The notes beneath the pieces are model-generated. The model searched no databases and was not told the origin of the DNA. It saw only the letters and a program-made list of their open reading frames with translations. 13,553 bases of DNA from an uncultured Ruminococcus sp. (GTDB taxonomy: Bacteria > Bacillota > Clostridia > Oscillospirales > Ruminococcaceae), in assembly GCA_946537565.1 (NCBI GenBank), contig CAMNFW010000032.1:1-13553 (forward strand). The letters are read 5' to 3'. The position numbers were made by a program, and so were the translations under genes. Shown piece by piece: positions 5,858-13,553 of the stretch; the first letter of the stretch is position 1, and each line of letters opens with the position of its first letter.

Positions 5858-6763
5858 CTAAAGATAAATACCCACAGCGGTGGTTATTCCGTTATTGGAG
5901 CCGGAGATATCAATAGAAGAGACAGAGCCGGAGCAGCCGGGAGCGGAAGCGTTGTCATAAAGCTCCTCACCCTTGAAGCCGGAGTAGGTAAAGATCTCTT
6001 TTTTCCAGGCTCTTGACGCAATAGTGTCATAGAAATATAAAGCTTCCTGGGGGTTATAGAGGAAGCGTTTGTCCAGTTCAGAGTACTGGTGGCGGACGAT
6101 GCCTCGGTTTCTGACGGCGGTGTTGGTATAATCGAAGGTGCCGTAATTACCGTCGATATCCTCCATATGGAAGTCACTGATAAGCCGGGTGGTCGTCATA
6201 AGCTTTTCACTGGAGAGCAGTTCACTGCTGGTGTAGGCGAAAGAAGCCGGAGAATCCGGAGCGCTTAGCATAACGCAGTTAGTGCCGGAGATATAGGGAT
6301 AGCGTTTATAGAGCTTGTAGGCGAGGGCGGAGATGCCGTCCCACATAGACGAGCCGTATTTAATATAGATATAGTTGCTGGAATCGGAGCTGTCCTCATG
6401 GGTGACATAGGGGATATGGATATAGCTGTCCATGAGACTGTTCACGGAGACATTCATGATGAAGCCGGGCTGGATCTGGTTTTGCATAAGCTGGGCGGTG
6501 AAGCCTCTGGAAGCGAGGGAGCTGAGATAGACACTGCCTTTATGAACAGTGGAGAGGGAGTCGATAAGACCGTGGTGGATAAGCTTCTGATCCACATAGA
6601 AATAAATTTCGGAGAAATCAGCCGGTTCATGGTTTTCGGAAACGAACCGAACCTTAAGCTGAGTATAGGGCTGATAGATCTCTTTAAAAAAACGGAAGCT
6701 GAGGATATCGGAATATTCCGACAGGGTACCGTCAAGCTTTTTAAGGCGGAGCTTAGCGTTCAC
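5858..6763 (-). CDS. Putative phage baseplate hub protein (XkdQ / gpD / gp27-like)
   Basis: This 301-residue protein resembles, by layout, the hub proteins of contractile tails. An N-terminal beta domain (about 1-90) includes the typical pattern of a strand pair ending in HHGLIDS, then a PGFIMNVSVNSLM helix start. A middle part has IYIKYGSSMWDGISALAYKLY followed by PYISGTNCVML, similar to the W..i..l..k pattern of XkdQ-type proteins. The C-terminal part is Ser/Gly-rich. The start is GTG, overlapping the previous TAG by one base, with GAGGTGA upstream. It is the last gene before the terminator. Tail-tube, tape-measure and baseplate-wedge genes normally near it are absent. Assignment is from pattern memory, not a search. 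Confidence 0.5.
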   Translation of the reverse strand: MNAKLRLKKLDGTLSEYSDILSFRFFKEIYQPYTQLKVRFVSENHEPADFSEIYFYVDQKLIHHGLIDSLSTVHKGSVYLSSLASRGFTAQLMQNQIQPGFIMNVSVNSLMDSYIHIPYVTHEDSSDSSNYIYIKYGSSMWDGISALAYKLYKRYPYISGTNCVMLSAPDSPASFAYTSSELLSSEKLMTTTRLISDFHMEDIDGNYGTFDYTNTAVRNRGIVRHQYSELDKRFLYNPQEALYFYDTIASRAWKKEIFTYSGFKGEELYDNASAPGCSGSVSSIDISGSNNGITTAVGIYL

Positions 6764-7149
6764 TAAACAGTCACCTCTCTCTGGATATTATTTGTAGTTA
6801 TGAGGGTTACGGAGACTTTGACAAATTCCTCGCCGGAATCCTCAACGGAGAATCCAGCCACCCGGCAGCCGGTGAATTCAAGACCTCTGTAGCTGAATGC
6901 GATGCTGGAATTATTGCCGCCGATATTACCGATATAAGCGGCGAACAGCAGAGGGTCGTCCTCATCGTAAACTCTGCCGGTAAGGGTAATGCGGACGGCT
7001 TTTTTCTGGACATTGGTAATAAGGGAAGTGCCTGTAACAGAAGGCTGCTCAGCAAAAACAGTAACACCGGCAGCCTTGAAGCTTTCGCAGTAGAAGGTAT
7101 AACCTGCGATAGTTACAGGCACAGCTTCTCTGTTGTTAAAAGCGCTCAT
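6763..7149 (-). CDS. Small beta-rich phage tail/baseplate protein
   Basis: The protein has 128 residues, almost all predicted beta strand, with no signal peptide or membrane helix. It contains VPVTIAGYTFYCESFK near the start, RITLTGRVYDEDDP in the middle, and alternating Val/Thr strands to the end (VKVSVTLITTNN). In contractile-tail phages of Clostridia, small proteins of this kind often precede the hub gene, which is the position here. A role as tube or tube-initiator protein is an alternative. The ATG overlaps the upstream stop (ATGA) and has GGGAGG in front, so it is translationally coupled. Confidence 0.45.
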   Translation of the reverse strand: MSAFNNREAVPVTIAGYTFYCESFKAAGVTVFAEQPSVTGTSLITNVQKKAVRITLTGRVYDEDDPLLFAAYIGNIGGNNSSIAFSYRGLEFTGCRVAGFSVEDSGEEFVKVSVTLITTNNIQREVTV

Positions 7150-7556
7150 TGTTCCTCCCTTGATATTTTATGGATACCGCTGACGGAGATGACAGCGGTG
7201 AGGACGAGGCGGTTGATATTGGTATCATGTTTCAGTTTAAGCTCAGAGAGTGAGCAGGTAAGGCTGTGGATACTGAACAAAGCCGGCTCGATGAAGCTGT
7301 CGTAGTAGGAATAGAGCTTTTCAAAGCTGAGATTTTCCGGAGCAGTAACACTGACCTCAACGCTGGCTTTATAGGGCATGAAAATGGTATACTGTGAATA
7401 AATAGGGGAAAGGGTCTCGAAGGCTTTAGTACCGATGACGGTGTAAAAGCCATTGCCTTTGCGTTCAACAGGAGCGGCATCGAAGGCGGTGAAGACATTT
7501 TCCGCACCTTTCCGGCGGAGAGCGCCTTTAACGGTATCAAGGATTATCTTAAGCAT
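7146..7556 (-). CDS. Putative tail terminator / head-tail joining protein
   Basis: The 136-residue protein lies directly after the head-tail connector, the usual place of neck and tail-completion proteins. It begins with an amphipathic helix (LKIILDTVKGALRRKG). A beta strand block follows (KASVEVSVTAPENL), then a helix (FEKLYSYYDSFIEPAL), then further strands (RLVLTAVISVSG), an alpha/beta pattern compatible with tail terminators. ATG with AAAGGAGC upstream. The function is inferred mainly from position; I do not recognise a specific family. Confidence 0.45.
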   Translation of the reverse strand: MLKIILDTVKGALRRKGAENVFTAFDAAPVERKGNGFYTVIGTKAFETLSPIYSQYTIFMPYKASVEVSVTAPENLSFEKLYSYYDSFIEPALFSIHSLTCSLSELKLKHDTNINRLVLTAVISVSGIHKISREEQ

Positions 7557-7569
7557 AAAAAAGCTCCTT

Positions 7570-7917
7570 TCAGATATTTTTAAAAGTAAAGTTCAGGTCG
7601 CCGATGAGGTCACTGCAAAGCCGGAGGTATTCTTTAAGGAGAGAAGCCGCAGCCGAAGGGGAAGAATTATCGCTGTGGGAGAGCATTTTTCCGGCATAGG
7701 TGATATTTCTTCTGTCTCTGGCAGAGCGGATAGCAGCGAGCCTGTAGTTGACGAGAGCGGCGCAGAGAAATTCCAGCCTGATATCATTGGGGTCAGCATC
7801 GGGCAGGAGCAGGGAATCAATTTCGTCTTCAGCGAGGGAAATGAGCTGGACATAGCCGTCAGCGCAGTCCTCACCGGAGAAAAGGCAAAGCAGGGATTTA
7901 ACAGATTCAATATTCAT
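7570..7917 (-). CDS. Head-tail connector (adaptor) protein, gp6-like
   Basis: The protein has 115 residues and is almost entirely helical: an N-terminal helix, a central RLEFLCAALVNYRLAAIRSARDR helix pair, and a C-terminal helix. This is the fold style of HK97 gp6 / SPP1 gp15 adaptors, which sit under the portal. The gene follows the capsid and protease genes, as expected. I chose the ATG at 7917 (M5 of a longer reading from GTG 7929) because GAGGTGATC lies 7-8 nt before it. The upstream protease gene stops 8 nt earlier. Confidence 0.6.
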   Translation of the reverse strand: MNIESVKSLLCLFSGEDCADGYVQLISLAEDEIDSLLLPDADPNDIRLEFLCAALVNYRLAAIRSARDRRNITYAGKMLSHSDNSSPSAAASLLKEYLRLCSDLIGDLNFTFKNI

Positions 7918-7925
7918 AAAAAAGA

Positions 7926-8771
7926 TCACCTCAGAATAAAAACGCTGTTCTGTTCAATTTCCTGTTCAGAGTTATCAGCGGGGGGAGCGAGCTGAACGGG
8001 GATAAAATTTTTTCTTGCAAGGCGTTCGTAGGCATTTTTAGTTTCGTTCAGGCGGCTTATATCCATATTCTTAGCGGAGACAAAAGCGGCGATAGCAGCG
8101 GCTCTTCCGCCGGTAAGAAAGGCAAGGCGGCGGATCTCTTTTCTCAGTTCAAAGCAGGCGGAATCGTAATCCTCAGACGGGTCAGAGAGCTTAGAGCCGT
8201 CACTGGTATATTTTTTTGTAACACCGGCGTTTACCTGAGCCGGAACAGCCACAAAGCTCCATTCATAGGCATCGGTGATATCGTCGAGGGTATTGAAGCA
8301 AAGAGTGCCGTTATATTTTTTTCCTTTGACATGGGAGCAGGCAGAAACAGAGCGGTCGCAGCCGCAGACCGAGCAGATCCTTTTAGAAGCGGCGCAGGAG
8401 ATGCTGACTTCTTTCTTGATACCGCCGTCTATTTCAGCGATGAGGTTTTTGTTATTATCCGTGCGGACCATATAAGCGTAAGCCTTAAGAAATTTATAAG
8501 GGGAGCCGGAGCGGGTGAGTTTATCCGGGTCAGAAACTATCTCAGTTTCAAAGATACGGGCATTCTGGTTATTAGTGGAAGGGTCGTGGTCGAAGATACC
8601 GGTTTTGCCGATGAAGAGCTTGCTGAGGGAAGAGAGAGCGTTATCCGAAAAGCGTTCAAAGTCCCGGTCGGTATCGTTATCGCAGAGAATGACGGAGAAG
8701 GTATAAAGCTCGTCCTCAGAGAAATCACGGCGGGTAAATTTATTGATCTTGTCAAGGGTTTCTTTGTTCAT
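7926..8771 (-). CDS. Putative prohead maturation protease with Cys/His cluster
   Basis: The 281-residue protein follows the S78-type prohead protease plan. The N-terminal part has FSVILCDNDTDRDFERF (about 25-41), then a candidate catalytic His in GIFDHD (H62), a candidate Ser in IKKEVSISC (S123), and the typical domain end AYEWSFVAVPAQ (about 168-179). Between Ser and the domain end sits CSVC...ACSH (C133, C136, C145, H147), which looks like an inserted zinc-binding knuckle. The C-terminal tail (about 188-281) is charged and helical. It would cleave capsid and scaffold during head maturation. It lies after the capsid gene, whereas HK97-type clusters usually place it before. ATG with AAAGGAGG upstream. 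Confidence 0.6.
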   Translation of the reverse strand: MNKETLDKINKFTRRDFSEDELYTFSVILCDNDTDRDFERFSDNALSSLSKLFIGKTGIFDHDPSTNNQNARIFETEIVSDPDKLTRSGSPYKFLKAYAYMVRTDNNKNLIAEIDGGIKKEVSISCAASKRICSVCGCDRSVSACSHVKGKKYNGTLCFNTLDDITDAYEWSFVAVPAQVNAGVTKKYTSDGSKLSDPSEDYDSACFELRKEIRRLAFLTGGRAAAIAAFVSAKNMDISRLNETKNAYERLARKNFIPVQLAPPADNSEQEIEQNSVFILR

Positions 8772-8785
8772 AGATCCTCCTTTAT

Positions 8786-8812
8786 CCCGTCCAGATATAA
8801 AACCTGAACGGG
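8786..8812 (-). promoter_or_regulatory. RNA hairpin between capsid and protease genes
   Basis: The 132-bp space between the capsid stop and the protease start contains CCCGTTCAG pairing with CTGGACGGG (9 bp, one G-U) around a 9-nt loop on the minus strand. It ends a few bases before the AAAGGAGG ribosome site of the protease gene. The G-U favours a minus-strand RNA role, such as protecting the capsid mRNA end or damping protease translation. A T10 run on the plus strand (8819-8828) also allows a plus-strand terminator of any antisense transcript. Confidence 0.5.
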
Positions 8813-8903
8813 ACGGTATTTTTTTTTTAGAAGTAAGATTTTATCATTTCATTCAGCCGGGCAGCGTTCCTGTATCAGAAGGCATTTCACTGAAAAATGG
8901 GAT

Positions 8904-9866
8904 TTATCCGGCAGAAACAGTCAGCACCTTAACAGCAGAAGGAGTGATCTTTTTGAAGCCGCAGGTGATAGAAACGGCGATCTGATCGAGCTGGCGGTCG
9001 ATGAGCTTATCGGTTTCGAGGACGAGACCGGAGCTGGTGATAAATTCCAGGGCGAAATCTCTGTCGATACCGATGATGGTATTATCTTCAGCGGAAGCGG
9101 TCTTAAGGAGCTTAGCGCCGAAGGGGAGAACGAGTCTGCCGGCGGCATCGGGCTTAGCCTCACTGAGCTGATCCATAGCAGCTATCTTAGAAGCGTCTGT
9201 AGGTGAAGCGATTACGATGTTCATATTGAAGTCATCGAAGCTGCCGTAGAGCTGAGCGAGAGCGGCATAAGTAAGGGAATCAGCGGTGATCTGTTCGGCA
9301 TCTTCAGCGAGAACGGAGACAGCCTTTTTAGCCACAGCAGCGGCAAGGCGTACACCGACGCTTCTGAGCATGATACCGAAAACGTCCAGGCGCTGCTTTC
9401 TTACAGCCTCATAGGAAGCGTTGATAAGTCTGCCGAACTTCTGGAGAACGACAGCATCACTGCCTTCTCTTACGGAAGCAGTGGGAAGGGGACCAGCCTC
9501 AGCGGTGACGGAATATTCAGCGGAATCATCAATAGTGCAGCCCAGGTACTGGGAGCTTTCGCAGATAGTTTTAACAGCGCTGACATCGTTGATAAAGGTT
9601 TCGCTGAAGCCTTTTCTGATGCTGCGGACGACGAATTCCGGGAACAGCACAGCGGTTTCGGTAGAAGTGAAGAACTTTTCCACTCTGTCGCAGTCTGAAC
9701 CGGTGAGGCGGATATTGAATCTTTTGAGCTGTCTTTCGTAAGCGTCGAGCTTTTCGAGAGGGGAGCCGGAGTAGTTAGAAGTTGGGTCCAGATCTTCGAG
9801 GGCGGCGGTGAAGGATTTGCCGGAGAGGTTGTAGAGAGCCTTTTCAAGTTTAACATCATTATACAT
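8904..9866 (-). CDS. Major capsid protein, HK97 fold
   Basis: The 320-residue protein resembles the Clostridia-phage capsid family with an N-terminal LEKLDAYERQLKRF helix (about 36-50), then FFTSTETAVLFPEFVVRSIRKGF (about 66-88), which starts the shell domain. The E-loop-like part and a long backbone helix follow (about 145-185). A typical C-terminal strand set ends in VLETDKLIDRQLDQIAVSITCGF. It has no long N-terminal scaffold (delta) domain, only about 65 residues before the shell domain. Subunits would form the icosahedral head that encloses packaged DNA. ATG with GGAGG. Portal and terminase neighbours argue against an encapsulin. Confidence 0.8.
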   Translation of the reverse strand: MYNDVKLEKALYNLSGKSFTAALEDLDPTSNYSGSPLEKLDAYERQLKRFNIRLTGSDCDRVEKFFTSTETAVLFPEFVVRSIRKGFSETFINDVSAVKTICESSQYLGCTIDDSAEYSVTAEAGPLPTASVREGSDAVVLQKFGRLINASYEAVRKQRLDVFGIMLRSVGVRLAAAVAKKAVSVLAEDAEQITADSLTYAALAQLYGSFDDFNMNIVIASPTDASKIAAMDQLSEAKPDAAGRLVLPFGAKLLKTASAEDNTIIGIDRDFALEFITSSGLVLETDKLIDRQLDQIAVSITCGFKKITPSAVKVLTVSAG

Positions 9867-9886
9867 AAAATAATACCTCCAAAAGA

Positions 9887-11020
9887 TTAATTGTTATTAC
9901 TCAGGCGCTGTTCGATCTCCATAGCCTGAGCGGTTTTAAGTCTTGCATCAGCCAGGACAAGCTCGTCCTGGAGATTGATATTGTCCCACTCCACGGAGCA
10001 GGAAGAATCTGTACCGAGGAGGCACAGGAAAGAGTTGCCGATCTCAGTGATAACAGGTGTGAGAAGTCTGCGGTAATATTCCAGCTCAGAGGTAAGGATA
10101 TCAGCCTGCTGAGAGGACATACGCTCGGTGGTACTCCAGCTGAGACCGAGCAGGAAAGGCGGGATCGACAGCTTAGAGATGATCTGTTCGAGAAGCTGCC
10201 GCACAGGAACGTTGGTATCAAACAGTTGATTTTCCGCACCGATAACCTTTATATCCACATCGCCCACAGCGATGAAGTCTTTGACATTGCCGTATCTTGC
10301 GGAGTTCATACCGTCAGCCCATTCCTTAGCGATGAGCATAGCACGATCTTTAGCAGCGGAGAGATCGCCGCCGGAGCCGTCTGGTTTATATGTGACGGCA
10401 TAGCGGATATTGCCGGCACGGTCATAATTCTGACCGATGCACCTGTAGATCCTCATGAGGATACTGCTGAGCGCCGGGAGACCACGGAGAATGGAATTAC
10501 CGCCGATGAGTGCAGCGTAAACGATCCTTTCCGGGTGAGGGAGCTTAACAGCGGAGCCGCCGGGGGAAGAGAGGATATAGTCCCGTGAGAAAGGCTGAGC
10601 GCCCTGAACCGCTTTGACCGAGCCGGGCGAACCGTTCCAGAGACCGGCAATACCGCTGCCGTCCGGAAGGGGAACTATCTCACCGGCAGCGGAGCCATAG
10701 GTCAGCAGGCTGTCCAGGAAGATATCGGTAAAAGTACCCAGCGATCTGCCGGAGATACCCACGGGAACATTTTCGCAGAAGGAATCCAGTTCCGGCTGAA
10801 ATTTTTTGTCTGAGCAGACGAGCCTGAAACCGCCGGTAAGCCGGATAGTTTTCATAATAGCGGCATCAATGACCGGCACAGCGAATCTTAGTCTGTCGTA
10901 GAGTTCCTTTTCAAAAGGGAGAGGGGACTCTGGCAGCAGGCAGCTGTCTTTGAAGTCCTGACGTTCAGCCTGAACGAGCTGGATATCGGGAGCAGATTTT
11001 TTGCGTTTGAAGAAATTCAT
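9887..11020 (-). CDS. Phage portal protein
   Basis: The 377-residue protein forms the ring through which DNA enters and leaves the head. Visible family features are a GFRLVCSDKKFQPELDSF region (about 64-81), LDSLLTYGSAAGEIV (about 102-116), ILRGLPALSSILMRIYRCIGQNYDR (about 178-202), the IPPFLLGLSWSTTERMSSQQADI block (about 287-309) typical of portal stems, and a helical C-terminus. Lengths of related portals are about 380-450, so it is short but complete. ATG preceded by AGGAGGT. It ends 20 bp before the capsid gene. Confidence 0.85.
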   Translation of the reverse strand: MNFFKRKKSAPDIQLVQAERQDFKDSCLLPESPLPFEKELYDRLRFAVPVIDAAIMKTIRLTGGFRLVCSDKKFQPELDSFCENVPVGISGRSLGTFTDIFLDSLLTYGSAAGEIVPLPDGSGIAGLWNGSPGSVKAVQGAQPFSRDYILSSPGGSAVKLPHPERIVYAALIGGNSILRGLPALSSILMRIYRCIGQNYDRAGNIRYAVTYKPDGSGGDLSAAKDRAMLIAKEWADGMNSARYGNVKDFIAVGDVDIKVIGAENQLFDTNVPVRQLLEQIISKLSIPPFLLGLSWSTTERMSSQQADILTSELEYYRRLLTPVITEIGNSFLCLLGTDSSCSVEWDNINLQDELVLADARLKTAQAMEIEQRLSNNN

Positions 11021-11039
11021 ATTACCTCCTTTTTTTAAT

Positions 11040-11080
11040 TCACGTTGTCGCTTGCTAAAGCTCGCTCACTCTTAACGTGA
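11040..11080 (-). repeat. Nested inverted repeats in the terL-portal gap
   Basis: The 193-bp space between terL and portal is the longest gap inside the cluster. TCACGTT (11040-11046) is mirrored by AACGTGA (11074-11080), enclosing a second stem GCTT/AAGC (11050-11053 with 11058-11061). It lies just upstream of the portal ribosome site. No T tract follows on the minus strand, so it is more likely an mRNA processing or translation element than a terminator. The remainder of the gap (11081-11213) shows no convincing gene. Confidence 0.45.
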
Positions 11081-11213
11081 TTGGTAACTTATAGATCGCA
11101 TACGGCGCAGAAGATGCTCCGGTGCTTTATGGTGCGGCTTGCTTCGTAAGGCGGTTGATATCATGATAGCTGCATCGAACGGCTCTTGATTCTGTTGATC
11201 CTGCTTCTGGCAG

Positions 11214-12464
11214 TCAGCTGATATCTCTTGACATAGACAGAGCGAAGAAACCGGCAGGCTCTTTCATAATATCGGAGACAAAATATCTAAGATCGTCCAT
11301 GGCGTGGTCATTCTCCTTGACAGGAGCGTCCATGCCGGCTTTTTCGCTCCAGCGGTAGAGGCTGAATTCTCTGATGATATCCTTGCAGCCGGAGTTTATC
11401 CTGATCTTATTTTGTTTAAGAGCGGAGCTGACCCGGCGGATACCGGATATCACATCATTGTCAGCCTTAACGACATTGAATCTGCCGTGACGGCGGATAC
11501 ATTCGATAAAGCTTGCAGCGGAGGGGTCAACGATAATGCGGCTGATATGCCTGTCACCGGCGAGCTGTTCAAGAGCGGAATAATGCTCCTCATCGGTGCG
11601 AGCGACACCTTCTCTTTTGGAAGAGTAGTAATACTCCGCAGTTCTGTACCAGACACCGCCGGACAGACCCCATAGACCGAAGGAAGAAGGATTGACAGTG
11701 CCGTAGTCGCAGGAGATAACAAACTCGCTGCACTGTATCTCGCCGGAATACAGATGCTTTTCAGGAGAGAACATAGGATAGACGACACCTTCTGAGGCGG
11801 TCCATTTTCCGAGGACGAAGCGGTCGTAGAAAGCGCCGGAATACAGCCTTTTGTATCTTTCCTTAAGATCGGGTGAAAGTGAAGGGTTATCGTCCATAGT
11901 GAAATGGATATAGAGGGCATTTTTCTCATTAGCTTTTTTGATCCACTCGTTGTAGAACCAGTGGGAGGGGTTATCGGGGTTGCAGTTGAACCACATTTTT
12001 GAGCCGGAGACAGAGCATCTTGCGAGGGCTTGTTCAACGAAGGAGCGAGGCATAAGAGCAGCCTCATCGAGGAATACACCGGCGAGGGTGATACCTTGGA
12101 TCAGAGCGGCAGAGCCTTCGTCCTTACCGCCGAAGAGGTAGAAGCGGTTAGATTTTCCGAGGAAAGAGATATCGATATAATTCCGGCTGATTTTTTCCTG
12201 ACAGGAGAAGCCATACTCTTTGAGGAGAGGGAGCAGGGGAGTGATGACATTTCTGTGGAGGGAAGTGACGGTTTTGCCGCAGACAGCGAAAGCAGCGCCT
12301 GAGAAGGAGTTTGCCGCCCACATAACGAAGCCGAGGGACATAGATAGTGTCTTGCCGCTGCGGACAGCACCGTCACAGATTACAGCGTCGAAGTGTCTGG
12401 TATCTGGTCTGCACCACCAGTTGACGGTGAGAAGTTGTTTTTTTGAGAATTTTTTAATCACCAT
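11214..12464 (-). CDS. terL: Phage terminase large subunit
   Basis: The motor and nuclease that pumps and cuts DNA during head filling, 416 residues. Walker A GAVRSGKT (32-39), Walker B GVFLDEA with D132/E133, a coupling-type FNCNP motif (about 158-162), and the RNase-H-like nuclease acids in CDYGTVNP (about D252), IIVDP (about D312) and HAMDDLRYF (about D389/D390) are all present, so it looks catalytically intact. I start it at the ATG at 12464, where GAGGAGAG lies 8 nt upstream, rather than at 12500. It overlaps the terS end by 11 bp in another frame, which implies coupling. Confidence 0.93.
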   Translation of the reverse strand: MVIKKFSKKQLLTVNWWCRPDTRHFDAVICDGAVRSGKTLSMSLGFVMWAANSFSGAAFAVCGKTVTSLHRNVITPLLPLLKEYGFSCQEKISRNYIDISFLGKSNRFYLFGGKDEGSAALIQGITLAGVFLDEAALMPRSFVEQALARCSVSGSKMWFNCNPDNPSHWFYNEWIKKANEKNALYIHFTMDDNPSLSPDLKERYKRLYSGAFYDRFVLGKWTASEGVVYPMFSPEKHLYSGEIQCSEFVISCDYGTVNPSSFGLWGLSGGVWYRTAEYYYSSKREGVARTDEEHYSALEQLAGDRHISRIIVDPSAASFIECIRRHGRFNVVKADNDVISGIRRVSSALKQNKIRINSGCKDIIREFSLYRWSEKAGMDAPVKENDHAMDDLRYFVSDIMKEPAGFFALSMSRDIS

Positions 12465-12942
12465 CAGCGGCACTCTCCTCTGCGGAAGCTGTGAGGGCAC
12501 CGATGAGGCTTTCAGCTCTTGCGTTATCGGAGAAAGAATTTTCCAGCTCAGAGAGCTTTTCCAGCGCCTTCATACGGTCGGCGAATTTGATCTCAACGCC
12601 CTTGTCCTTGATACGTTTTATCTCTGCGACATTGAAGAGATCGAGGGAAGCGATGACTGAGGGCGGAGGAAGCTCTTCAGCGAAAGCAAGATAAATCGCA
12701 TCATTGCAGGAGCCGAAGGCAAGACGTCTGAGACCGGTGATGACGTTATTTTCGTCGGCGAGGGCAGCTCGGAGTTCAGCGATATATTTTTTGCAGGCTG
12801 GTTTTTTGAGAAGCTGCATACCGAAAGCGAAAGCGTTTTCACGGTCAGCGCCTGCGTGGACAGCGGCTTCGGGGACACTGCCCAGCAGCACATACCAAAG
12901 GCAGAAGCTTTTCCGCATTGAATTCTGAATGTGATCTGACAA
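12454..12942 (-). CDS. terS: Phage terminase small subunit
   Basis: TerS chooses the DNA to be packaged. This 162-residue protein has an N-terminal helix-turn-helix-like part (FCLWYVLLGSVPEAAVHAG, then FAFGMQLLKKPACKKYI), the typical TerS middle (GLRRLAFGSCNDAIYLAF, SLDLFNVAEIKRIKDKG) and VEIKFADRMKALEKLSELE at the oligomerisation end. An ATG at 12987 has no ribosome site. A TTG at 12942 is in frame with AAAAGGAGG 8 nt upstream, so I prefer TTG; this may keep expression low. It is the first gene of the cluster. Confidence 0.75.
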   Translation of the reverse strand: MSDHIQNSMRKSFCLWYVLLGSVPEAAVHAGADRENAFAFGMQLLKKPACKKYIAELRAALADENNVITGLRRLAFGSCNDAIYLAFAEELPPPSVIASLDLFNVAEIKRIKDKGVEIKFADRMKALEKLSELENSFSDNARAESLIGALTASAEESAADGD

Positions 12943-13069
12943 ATAAAAAACCTCCTTTTGACGGCTGAGTGAATGATCACCGTTCATAAGGGGGCAAAAA
13001 ATGGGTATTTTTCAATACAAAACCGTTGAATAAGGAAAAAATTTTTTTTGAGGAAAAAATTCTGCATTG

Positions 13070-13198: not shown

Positions 13199-13207
13199 AA
13201 CGTTCAA

Positions 13208-13265
13208 AAAATGTATACATTTTTGAAGAAAATGTTTACATTTCGACGTAAAATGAAAACATTTT
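13208..13265. promoter_or_regulatory. Three palindromic sites with exact 21-bp period
   Basis: AAAATGTATACATTTT (13208-13223, perfect palindrome), AAAATGTTTACATTTC (13229-13244) and AAAATGAAAACATTTT (13250-13265) start 21 bp apart, two helical turns, so all three face the same side of the DNA. This is the form of a cooperative operator for a dimeric regulator. It lies in the gene-free region upstream of terS. The regulator is not in the window. Confidence 0.65.
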
Positions 13266-13271
13266 GCTGAC

Positions 13272-13304
13272 AGAAAAGAATAGAAAAGAAAAGAATAGAA
13301 AAGA
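13272..13304. repeat. Purine-rich tract with tandem 15-bp unit
   Basis: AGAAAAGAATAGAAAAGA occurs at 13272-13289 and 13287-13304, giving two tandem 15-bp units. They lie within a longer stretch, to about 13334, that is mostly A and G on the plus strand. Function is unknown; such tracts can be simple slippage products. Confidence 0.6.
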
Positions 13305-13409
13305 CCAGATCAGAAGAGAGTAGAGAAGAAGAGCCTGCGGCATCACCCCCTCTCTCTGTAAGGCGATTAAGTGTTAGTTTACTTTCAAACGGACGGGAAT
13401 ATGTATCCG

Positions 13410-13431
13410 AAAAAAAGGGGGCGCAGCCCCC
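13410..13431 (-). terminator. Terminator isolating the cluster from genes to the right
   Basis: On the minus strand GGGGGC, a 3-nt loop and GCCCCC form a strong stem that runs directly into T7. It would stop minus-strand transcription entering from beyond the right edge. The phage-derived cluster must therefore have its own promoter somewhere in 12943-13409. Confidence 0.8.
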
Positions 13432-13509
13432 GTAATAGAAACTATGCAGTAGAAACAAGCAGAAAGAGTAATGGTTTTAGGCAAGTAACCGTGAACGAGA
13501 GCCGGGATT

Positions 13510-13553
13510 CCAAAGGGTTCACAACCCTTTGGCGGAGTCCAGAGGCAGAGCCT
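13510..13553. repeat. Partial dispersed hairpin repeat at the right edge
   Basis: CCAAAGGGTT (13510-13519) and AACCCTTTGG (13523-13532) form a perfect 10-bp stem with a 3-nt loop. They are followed by GGAGTCCAGAGGCAGAGCCT, which begins a second stem cut by the edge. Paired hairpins of this style are recalled as scattered intergenic repeats in Ruminococcus-type genomes; that recall is unverified here. Confidence 0.5.

Follow-up and report, generated by a model that had tools for sequence, protein, structure and literature searches.

Why would a gut or rumen bacterium carry a compact set of phage head and DNA-packaging genes with none of the genes that run a phage life cycle? The question is raised by a contig of an uncultured Ruminococcus sp. 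(CAMNFW010000032.1), one of 310 in a 2.16-Mb genome; we refer to this whole contig of 13,553 bp as the window. Its minus strand carries a nine-gene cluster in which the phage-derived head and packaging genes are kept intact, as those of a gene-transfer agent (GTA) would be. Comparison with related sequences leads us to regard the cluster as probably an anciently domesticated, vertically inherited phage head-and-packaging operon, most likely a GTA.

The cluster consists of nine open reading frames (ORFs) without internal stops at positions 5858 to 12942. Read along the minus strand from 12942 to 5858, they encode the small terminase (terS), the large terminase (terL), a portal protein, a capsid protein, a protease candidate, proteins of 119, 136, and 128 amino acids (aa), and a tail hub. 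A consensus scan placed minus-strand terminator-like hairpins 5' of the cluster (13431-13417, within a dispersed repeat) and 3' of it (5780-5755), although such sites numbered 16 in the stretch versus 8.9 expected. Genes for an integrase, a repressor, replication, lysis, or a fibre were not recognized in the window. The original prediction had described a compact terS-to-hub operon between terminators and a window without phage life-cycle genes, and both descriptions agree with these results.

We determined how widely the cluster occurs by searching for its portal gene. In the family, 87 of 197 genomes (71 of the 147 good ones) matched the window's portal protein, with a single match in 85 of them and only a fragment at a contig end in G086; G071 and G174 had one stop codon within the match, as did G666 in the order-level search. 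Counts for the genus, order, and class were made with a 15-row portal profile and concern the portal gene only. The profile matched 92 of the 100 genus genomes (54 of the 55 good ones), in one of them as two adjacent fragments, and 77 of 394 genomes of the order (75 of 338 good ones), with one match each. The class yielded 9 of 393 genomes, and all nine belong to the window's order. The cluster is nearly always single-copy and, in the genomes sampled, restricted to one bacterial order; the patchy, single-strain occurrence that would have pointed to a prophage was not observed in the genus. Among named genomes, at least 573 relatives were present among at least 598 pattern matches; the 80 kept include Anaerotruncus colihominis, Caproicibacter fermentans, and Merdimmobilis hominis.

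The gene content of the cluster is also conserved. We assembled 43 genus loci: the window, two loci obtained earlier, and 40 more, most of them on long contigs, from the 89 other genomes with a match. All nine genes were present in every one of these portal-bearing loci. The L345 capsid gene is interrupted by an assembly gap, and the L356 terS gene is short. Of 86 matching relatives in the family, 80 loci were analyzed with profiles, many of them cut by contig ends; the counts were 70 for terS, 72 for terL, 73 for capsid, 76 for the protease candidate, 68 for the 119-aa gene, 62 for the 136-aa gene, 33 for the 128-aa gene, and 65 for the hub. Three loci from genomes of 0.7 to 0.9 Mb (L066, L078, and L106) kept a portal homologue with no other cluster protein recognized beside it.

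We measured selection as the ratio of nonsynonymous to synonymous substitution rates (dN/dS) in the 14 closest genus pairs, which share members and are not all independent. The concatenated genes gave dN/dS values of 0.08 to 0.14 at dS values of 0.16 to 0.91, and all single-gene values were below 0.3. TerL, portal, and capsid were among the slowest-evolving cluster proteins in the genus loci. Eight wider pairs gave 0.08 to 0.22, with dS mostly near saturation and one pair not computable, and the 136- and 128-aa genes (o136 and o128) exceeded 0.4 in some of these pairs. With dN/dS about 0.1, the cluster is under purifying selection and lacks the neutral ratio that had been named beforehand as the sign of decay.

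A tree of six cluster proteins from 29 genomes shared 20 of 26 splits with the recG tree (Mantel r, 0.81), and none of the 10 well-supported recG splits conflicted with it. The recG and purD trees of the same genomes shared 9 of 26 splits (r, 0.50). A joined recG and purD tree of 30 genomes had 16 of 27 splits in common with the cluster, versus 0.29 on average and at most 3 when the labels were permuted 500 times; the two genes were analyzed apart after this, since purD conflicts with recG. The cluster tracks recG better than purD does. These results show vertical inheritance under purifying selection.

The genes around the cluster are far less constant. No neighbor family was common to all 43 genus loci; the commonest, which we read as a secreted-enzyme-like protein, occurred in 20, and the next in 14. 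The 141 nearest neighbor proteins matched 106 Pfam and 45 PHROG families in all, RecG among them, and the 25 commonest of these families included no integrase or lysis family. Replication or integration genes were likewise not recognized in the window or, among the families listed, in the flanks of the genus loci. The contig stops at 13553 within a dispersed repeat, and the right side of the cluster was judged from relatives. It had been proposed that the cluster always sits beside recG, which did not hold: recG adjoins the hub end in 2 of the 43 genus loci, on the same strand only in the window, lies within ~10 kb in 6, and appears in 1 of the 80 family loci, partial and at the stretch edge. 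In the window a sigma-70-type promoter (5809-5781, 12/12) stands before recG and behind the terminator-like hairpin, so recG looks like a separate unit. The purD gene lies within the stretch in 9 of the 43 genus loci. L328-L330 have the counterparts of the window's purD and of the two genes after it directly upstream of terS, and relative to these genes recG and the cluster are inverted in the window; because of this arrangement, the window and L328-L330 appear to share one site, with an inversion.

Matches to known families support the head and packaging assignments. The terS gene (12454..12942) encodes a 162-aa protein from a TTG start after AAAAGGAGG; its Pfam Terminase_2 match (E, 1.6e-14) was scored on the longer ORF 12454-12987. 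The start at 12942, where the cluster had originally been taken to end, is favored by its Shine-Dalgarno (SD) sequence and by alignment with relatives, and is preferred over the ATG at 12987, from which the longer ORF runs into the leader described below. The terL gene (11214..12500) overlaps terS and matches Pfam Terminase_6N (E, 5e-17); TerL scored 224.9 bits against NCBIfam TIGR01547, the PBSX-family TerL model with a cut-off of 105, and belongs to that family. What we take to be the ATPase and nuclease motifs of TerL look present by eye. The portal protein (9887..11020) matches PHROG 30703 (E, 2.8e-123), and the major capsid protein (8904..9866) matches PHROG 3922 (E, 1.7e-64) and Pfam Phage_capsid_4 (E, 3.9e-10). 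The product of 7926..8771 matches PHROG 16951, a family of unknown function (E, 8e-93), and carries a Cys/His-rich insert; H62, S123, C133, C136, C145, and H147 are invariant in 12 sequences including the window, and on these motifs it is probably a prohead protease. Capsid precedes protease in the window's genus and some other genera, and many other genera, as well as all 16 loci that bear a sheath gene, have the protease first.

The remaining four genes, all on the same strand, would encode a connector and a rudimentary tail. The 119-aa protein (7570..7929) is a head-tail connector candidate by position only and occurs in 43 of 43 genus loci. The 136-aa protein (7146..7556) is a candidate tail terminator or completion protein by position and by a weak match to the long-form profile c7a (hhalign probability, 21). 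The 128-aa protein (6763..7149) is predicted with moderate confidence to adopt a tail-tube fold, which is common to tube, tube-initiator, and Hcp proteins. It is the cluster's sole candidate for a tube or a tube-initiator ring, and the fold does not say which. A search for its homologues gave 1 match among 18 candidates, and the 136- and 128-aa profiles stayed below confidence against long-form tail proteins. A single ORF of ~250 to 270 aa matches both profiles in L192, L208, L218, L232, and L248, so that the two genes look fused in several other genera. The last gene (5858..6763) had been called a putative baseplate hub, and its AlphaFold model (predicted local distance difference test score, 94.7) bears this out by matching the phage Mu gp44 hub 1wru (Foldseek E, 5e-16), of the gp27/Mu gp44-like type.

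Relatives in other genera have a longer form of the locus. Around the same hub they encode a tail sheath (PHROG E, 3e-15), a wedge or sheath-initiator-like protein, Baseplate_J (E, 3e-56), and a gpI/Gp48-like protein; three of the four fall short of every Pfam cut-off, although they do match tail families in PHROG. The order of these tail genes is like that of PBSX and that annotated in phage D6E. In the eight long-form loci where both sheath and tube were called, no tape measure was seen, because same-strand ORFs between the tube and hub genes reach at most 215 aa; the D6E tape measure is 636 aa. Some IMG/VR loci keep J and I with no sheath seen, and we infer an order of tail-gene loss from these forms. 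No contractile tail gene was recognized in the window or in short-form loci, and the window's short form has no recognized sheath, J, or I. The original prediction suggested other tail genes elsewhere in the genome. For baseplate J, a profile built from long-form relatives, which recovered all 4 long-form controls, found nothing in 34 of 36 short-form genomes, the exceptions being G148, with a partial match (6e-30), and G113, with a weak match.

How might such an operon be controlled? Directly upstream of terS lies a leader RNA with an SD-sequestering stem (12948..13035, minus strand). The window copy is weak, and its covariance-model match of 68.2 bits is not independent, since the window contributes to the seed of the model. 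The genus leaders have a first hairpin and a stem that encloses an inner hairpin and is formed by the SD sequence and a stretch resembling CCUCUUUUC. Covariation was analyzed in 35 of the 43 genus leaders, leaving out eight missed by the motif search. In the SD stem 79% of cells pair, versus 40 to 50% with slid partners, a percentage favored by construction, as the stem was picked by hand from single-sequence folds and then counted. None of 500 shuffles, which preserve column make-up and not relatedness, reached the observed covariation on any of five measures. A model from the 35 leaders found all eight left-out leaders, with one match each (E, 2.6e-11 to 0.0057). A leader match lay on the terS strand in 43 of 43 loci, with an in-frame start codon at most 7 bases from the match end in 42. 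In 157 further records, some from the same genome twice, there were 12 matches at E up to 1 (L094 and L225 being one locus), and 11 of them lay around the start of the longest terS ORF (just before it, spanning it, or a short way past it). The predicted probability that the SD sequence is unpaired had a median of 0.03 for terS (35 loci; 20 below 0.2), compared with 0.43 for 187 control genes (32 below 0.2) and 0.23 to 0.54 for the other cluster genes. RNAalifold on a MAFFT alignment predicted only part of the first hairpin, and Rfam gave no match at gathering score in the window (best E for the leader, 0.4). Taken together, the leader may act as a translational gate on terS. Our literature search did not find an SD-hiding leader RNA together with GTAs.

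Other signals upstream of terS were less informative. A LexA-like GAACN4GTTC site occurred in 3 of 43 loci (shuffle mean, 0.3; maximum, 2), too few to pursue, and Spo0A, sigma-H, and sigma-A patterns were at or below shuffles. An inverted repeat like TTTGTGCA-NN-TATACAAA is conserved upstream of the leader in relatives such as L350 and L340 and is not evident in the window. The pattern TTGTG-6-TACAA occurs upstream of the leader in 18 of 43 loci, whereas no such word exceeded a count of 5 in five shuffles. Elsewhere in the window, dispersed repeats at 11030-11139 and 13206-13553 have dozens of matches in the genome, several at contig ends; the copy at 11030-11139 sits within the operon, between terL and portal. 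The plus-strand ORF at 2957-3646 matches Spo0A weakly (TIGR02875, under the cut-off), and inspection by eye suggests a receiver-like part lacking the usual phospho-acceptor Asp. Its family occurs in the stretch of 5 of 43 genus loci, Spo0A_C was matched by 5 of the 141 neighbor proteins, and the protein is possibly a regulator.

Several observations count against a vertically inherited GTA. The portal was not matched in 110 of the 197 family genomes, so loss or absence is common, and in G007 the portal has two partial hits, with overlapping query ranges, that may represent two copies. The L349 capsid gene is damaged, and L045 TerL is split into three ORFs. Single cluster proteins share only 7 to 12 of 26 splits with recG, and the purD tree agrees with that of the cluster in 9 of 26 splits and contradicts it in 1 of 9 supported ones. 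Neighbors differ among species, and therefore relocation or rearrangement has occurred. The fold of the window's own leader is little better than those of its shuffled versions (z, -1.6; 10 of 200 equally good), versus z values of -5.5 to -7.8 in five relatives. Lysis and receptor-binding genes were not recognized in the loci, and no dedicated genome-wide search for either was made. Finally, particles, packaged DNA, and transfer are, for this cluster, predictions from its genes.

These points must be weighed with the other origins that the locus could have. The end of the window within a repeat could hide the rest of an ordinary or decaying prophage, and IMG/VR holds 358 related "viral" stretches (of 413 pattern matches). 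However, 30 of the 80 IMG/VR loci kept are of at least 9 kb and consist mainly of the cluster itself, with 44 other, unannotated ORFs of at least 180 aa. Among 50,697 phage records the capsid protein had 5 matches (E up to 1e-3), all to uncultured human faecal "Bacteriophage sp." and none to a named phage. The three records that we examined are titled UNVERIFIED; MT835508 carries rpsC, secY, and an anaerobic ribonucleotide reductase gene, and MT835952 carries a spore germination gene. The portal adds one Microcystis phage match at 28%, and TerL matches 949 phage records, with the best named phages at 50 to 52%. The low dN/dS, the near-universal occurrence in the genus, the recG-like tree, the make-up of the IMG/VR loci, and the flanks without a common integrase or lysis family largely contradict a prophage, which we consider very improbable. 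An unrecognized phage lineage of this order that re-enters genomes repeatedly would account for the varying neighborhoods, for close cluster pairs such as L347/L348 beside different genes, and for a possible second copy in G007. It has a similarly small chance, as the 92 genus and 77 order genomes have one locus each and the cluster tree is congruent with that of recG. The original prediction had offered a GTA or a satellite. A capsid-forming satellite that hijacks helper tails would explain head genes without full tail genes, but no integrase or replication module was recognized in the window or among the flank families listed, the cluster is near universal with a vertical pattern, and it encodes its own hub and tube-fold protein; we give this half of the proposal the least credence of all. 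The GTA half was strengthened by the same occurrence, selection, tree, and flank results.

A more serious alternative, although still an unlikely one, is a domesticated particle with another use, such as killing, DNA export, or phage defence, without gene transfer. TerL is of the PBSX family, long-form relatives encode sheath and baseplate proteins, and no receptor-binding gene was recognized, again with no dedicated search. PBSX itself acts as a tailocin and does not inject its DNA, according to a 2026 report (PMC12946183). On the other side, no sheath was recognized in short-form loci and their genomes mostly lack a baseplate-J homologue, so puncturing seems unlikely. The slow evolution of TerL, portal, and capsid points to DNA packaging as the selected function.

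If the cluster is a GTA, is it one already described? The likeness to PBSX-type phages lies in TerL and in the long-form tail genes, and the difference lies in a short form without sheath, J, and I and in loci without recognized lysis genes. RcGTA-type agents are domesticated head-tail clusters with vertical inheritance under purifying selection; the window's cluster resembles them in these respects but is of another lineage and gene set, and the RcGTA tail cluster is longer. A report by Klieve is said to describe DNA transfer in Ruminococcus. No prior description of such a system in this bacterial group was recognized in titles and the starts of abstracts, a search with bioRxiv and most subscription journals outside its scope. 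The closest published case is FpGTA of Faecalibacterium, reported along with GTA-like packaging in Ruminococcaceae (PMC12946183). In the available part of that paper, FpGTA particles hold about 9 kb of DNA and no replication genes are reported; Ruminococcus callidus DNA is found in faecal particles as 4.6-kb fragments, and no operon is reported for R. callidus. FpGTA and the window's cluster are alike in having terminase, portal, scaffold or protease, and capsid genes in a short operon of gut Ruminococcaceae. They differ in that a Faecalibacterium operon II has been published, whereas none is known for the window's cluster.

We compared the two systems through six genomes of genus g81, in which neither the portal profile nor the cluster's TerL had a match. 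We presume g81 to be Faecalibacterium from a 16S probe with six hits in one complete g81 genome; the probe hits none of the other g81 genomes searched, and outside g81 it hits three genera, with a single genome in each. The portal was likewise not found in the sampled genomes of these three genera. A TerL was found with PHROG 2 in all six g81 genomes, 73 to 77% identical to the G081 copy, beside a conserved ORF at 64 to 69% identity, and may be the TerL of FpGTA. The cluster's TerL profile scores it weakly, at 21 to 30 bits, and the cluster's portal, capsid, and protease profiles match neither it nor the adjoining conserved ORF. Within the reach of these tests, the cluster and FpGTA seem to have separate origins.

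A working model for the GTA can be proposed from these predictions. The leader would keep terS translation off by pairing with the terS SD sequence, and much of the operon would be kept off with it through overlapping or abutting downstream genes. Some signal would open the leader, and the operon would then be translated. Portal, capsid, and protease would build a small head, TerS and TerL would fill it with host DNA, and the terminator, tube-fold ring, and hub would seal it with a stub tail; genes for release and for receptors would be unlinked. A broader scenario, to which we give an even chance, is a second, independent, order-wide lineage of gut GTAs. A PBSX-type contractile phage would have been domesticated in or near the ancestor of the order and would have lost its tape measure, then its sheath, and then its baseplate wedges, leaving a nine-gene, stub-tailed particle in Ruminococcus that is gated by a new RNA leader and is the source of the 4.6-kb R. 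callidus particles.

In current resources the cluster is counted as virus, in IMG/VR and in phage scaffolds, and its portal is often labelled a serine/threonine phosphatase in public annotation. If the proposal is right, DNA packaging would be built into a major group of gut and rumen bacteria, through a system whose portal and TerL seem unrelated to those of the single gut-commensal GTA that our literature search found. The cluster would supply candidates for the genes behind the short host DNA published from Ruminococcus particles, and one bacterial family would offer two independent domestications to compare, with relatives that show steps of tail loss. A single leader RNA would be a simple genetic handle on the timing of particle production.

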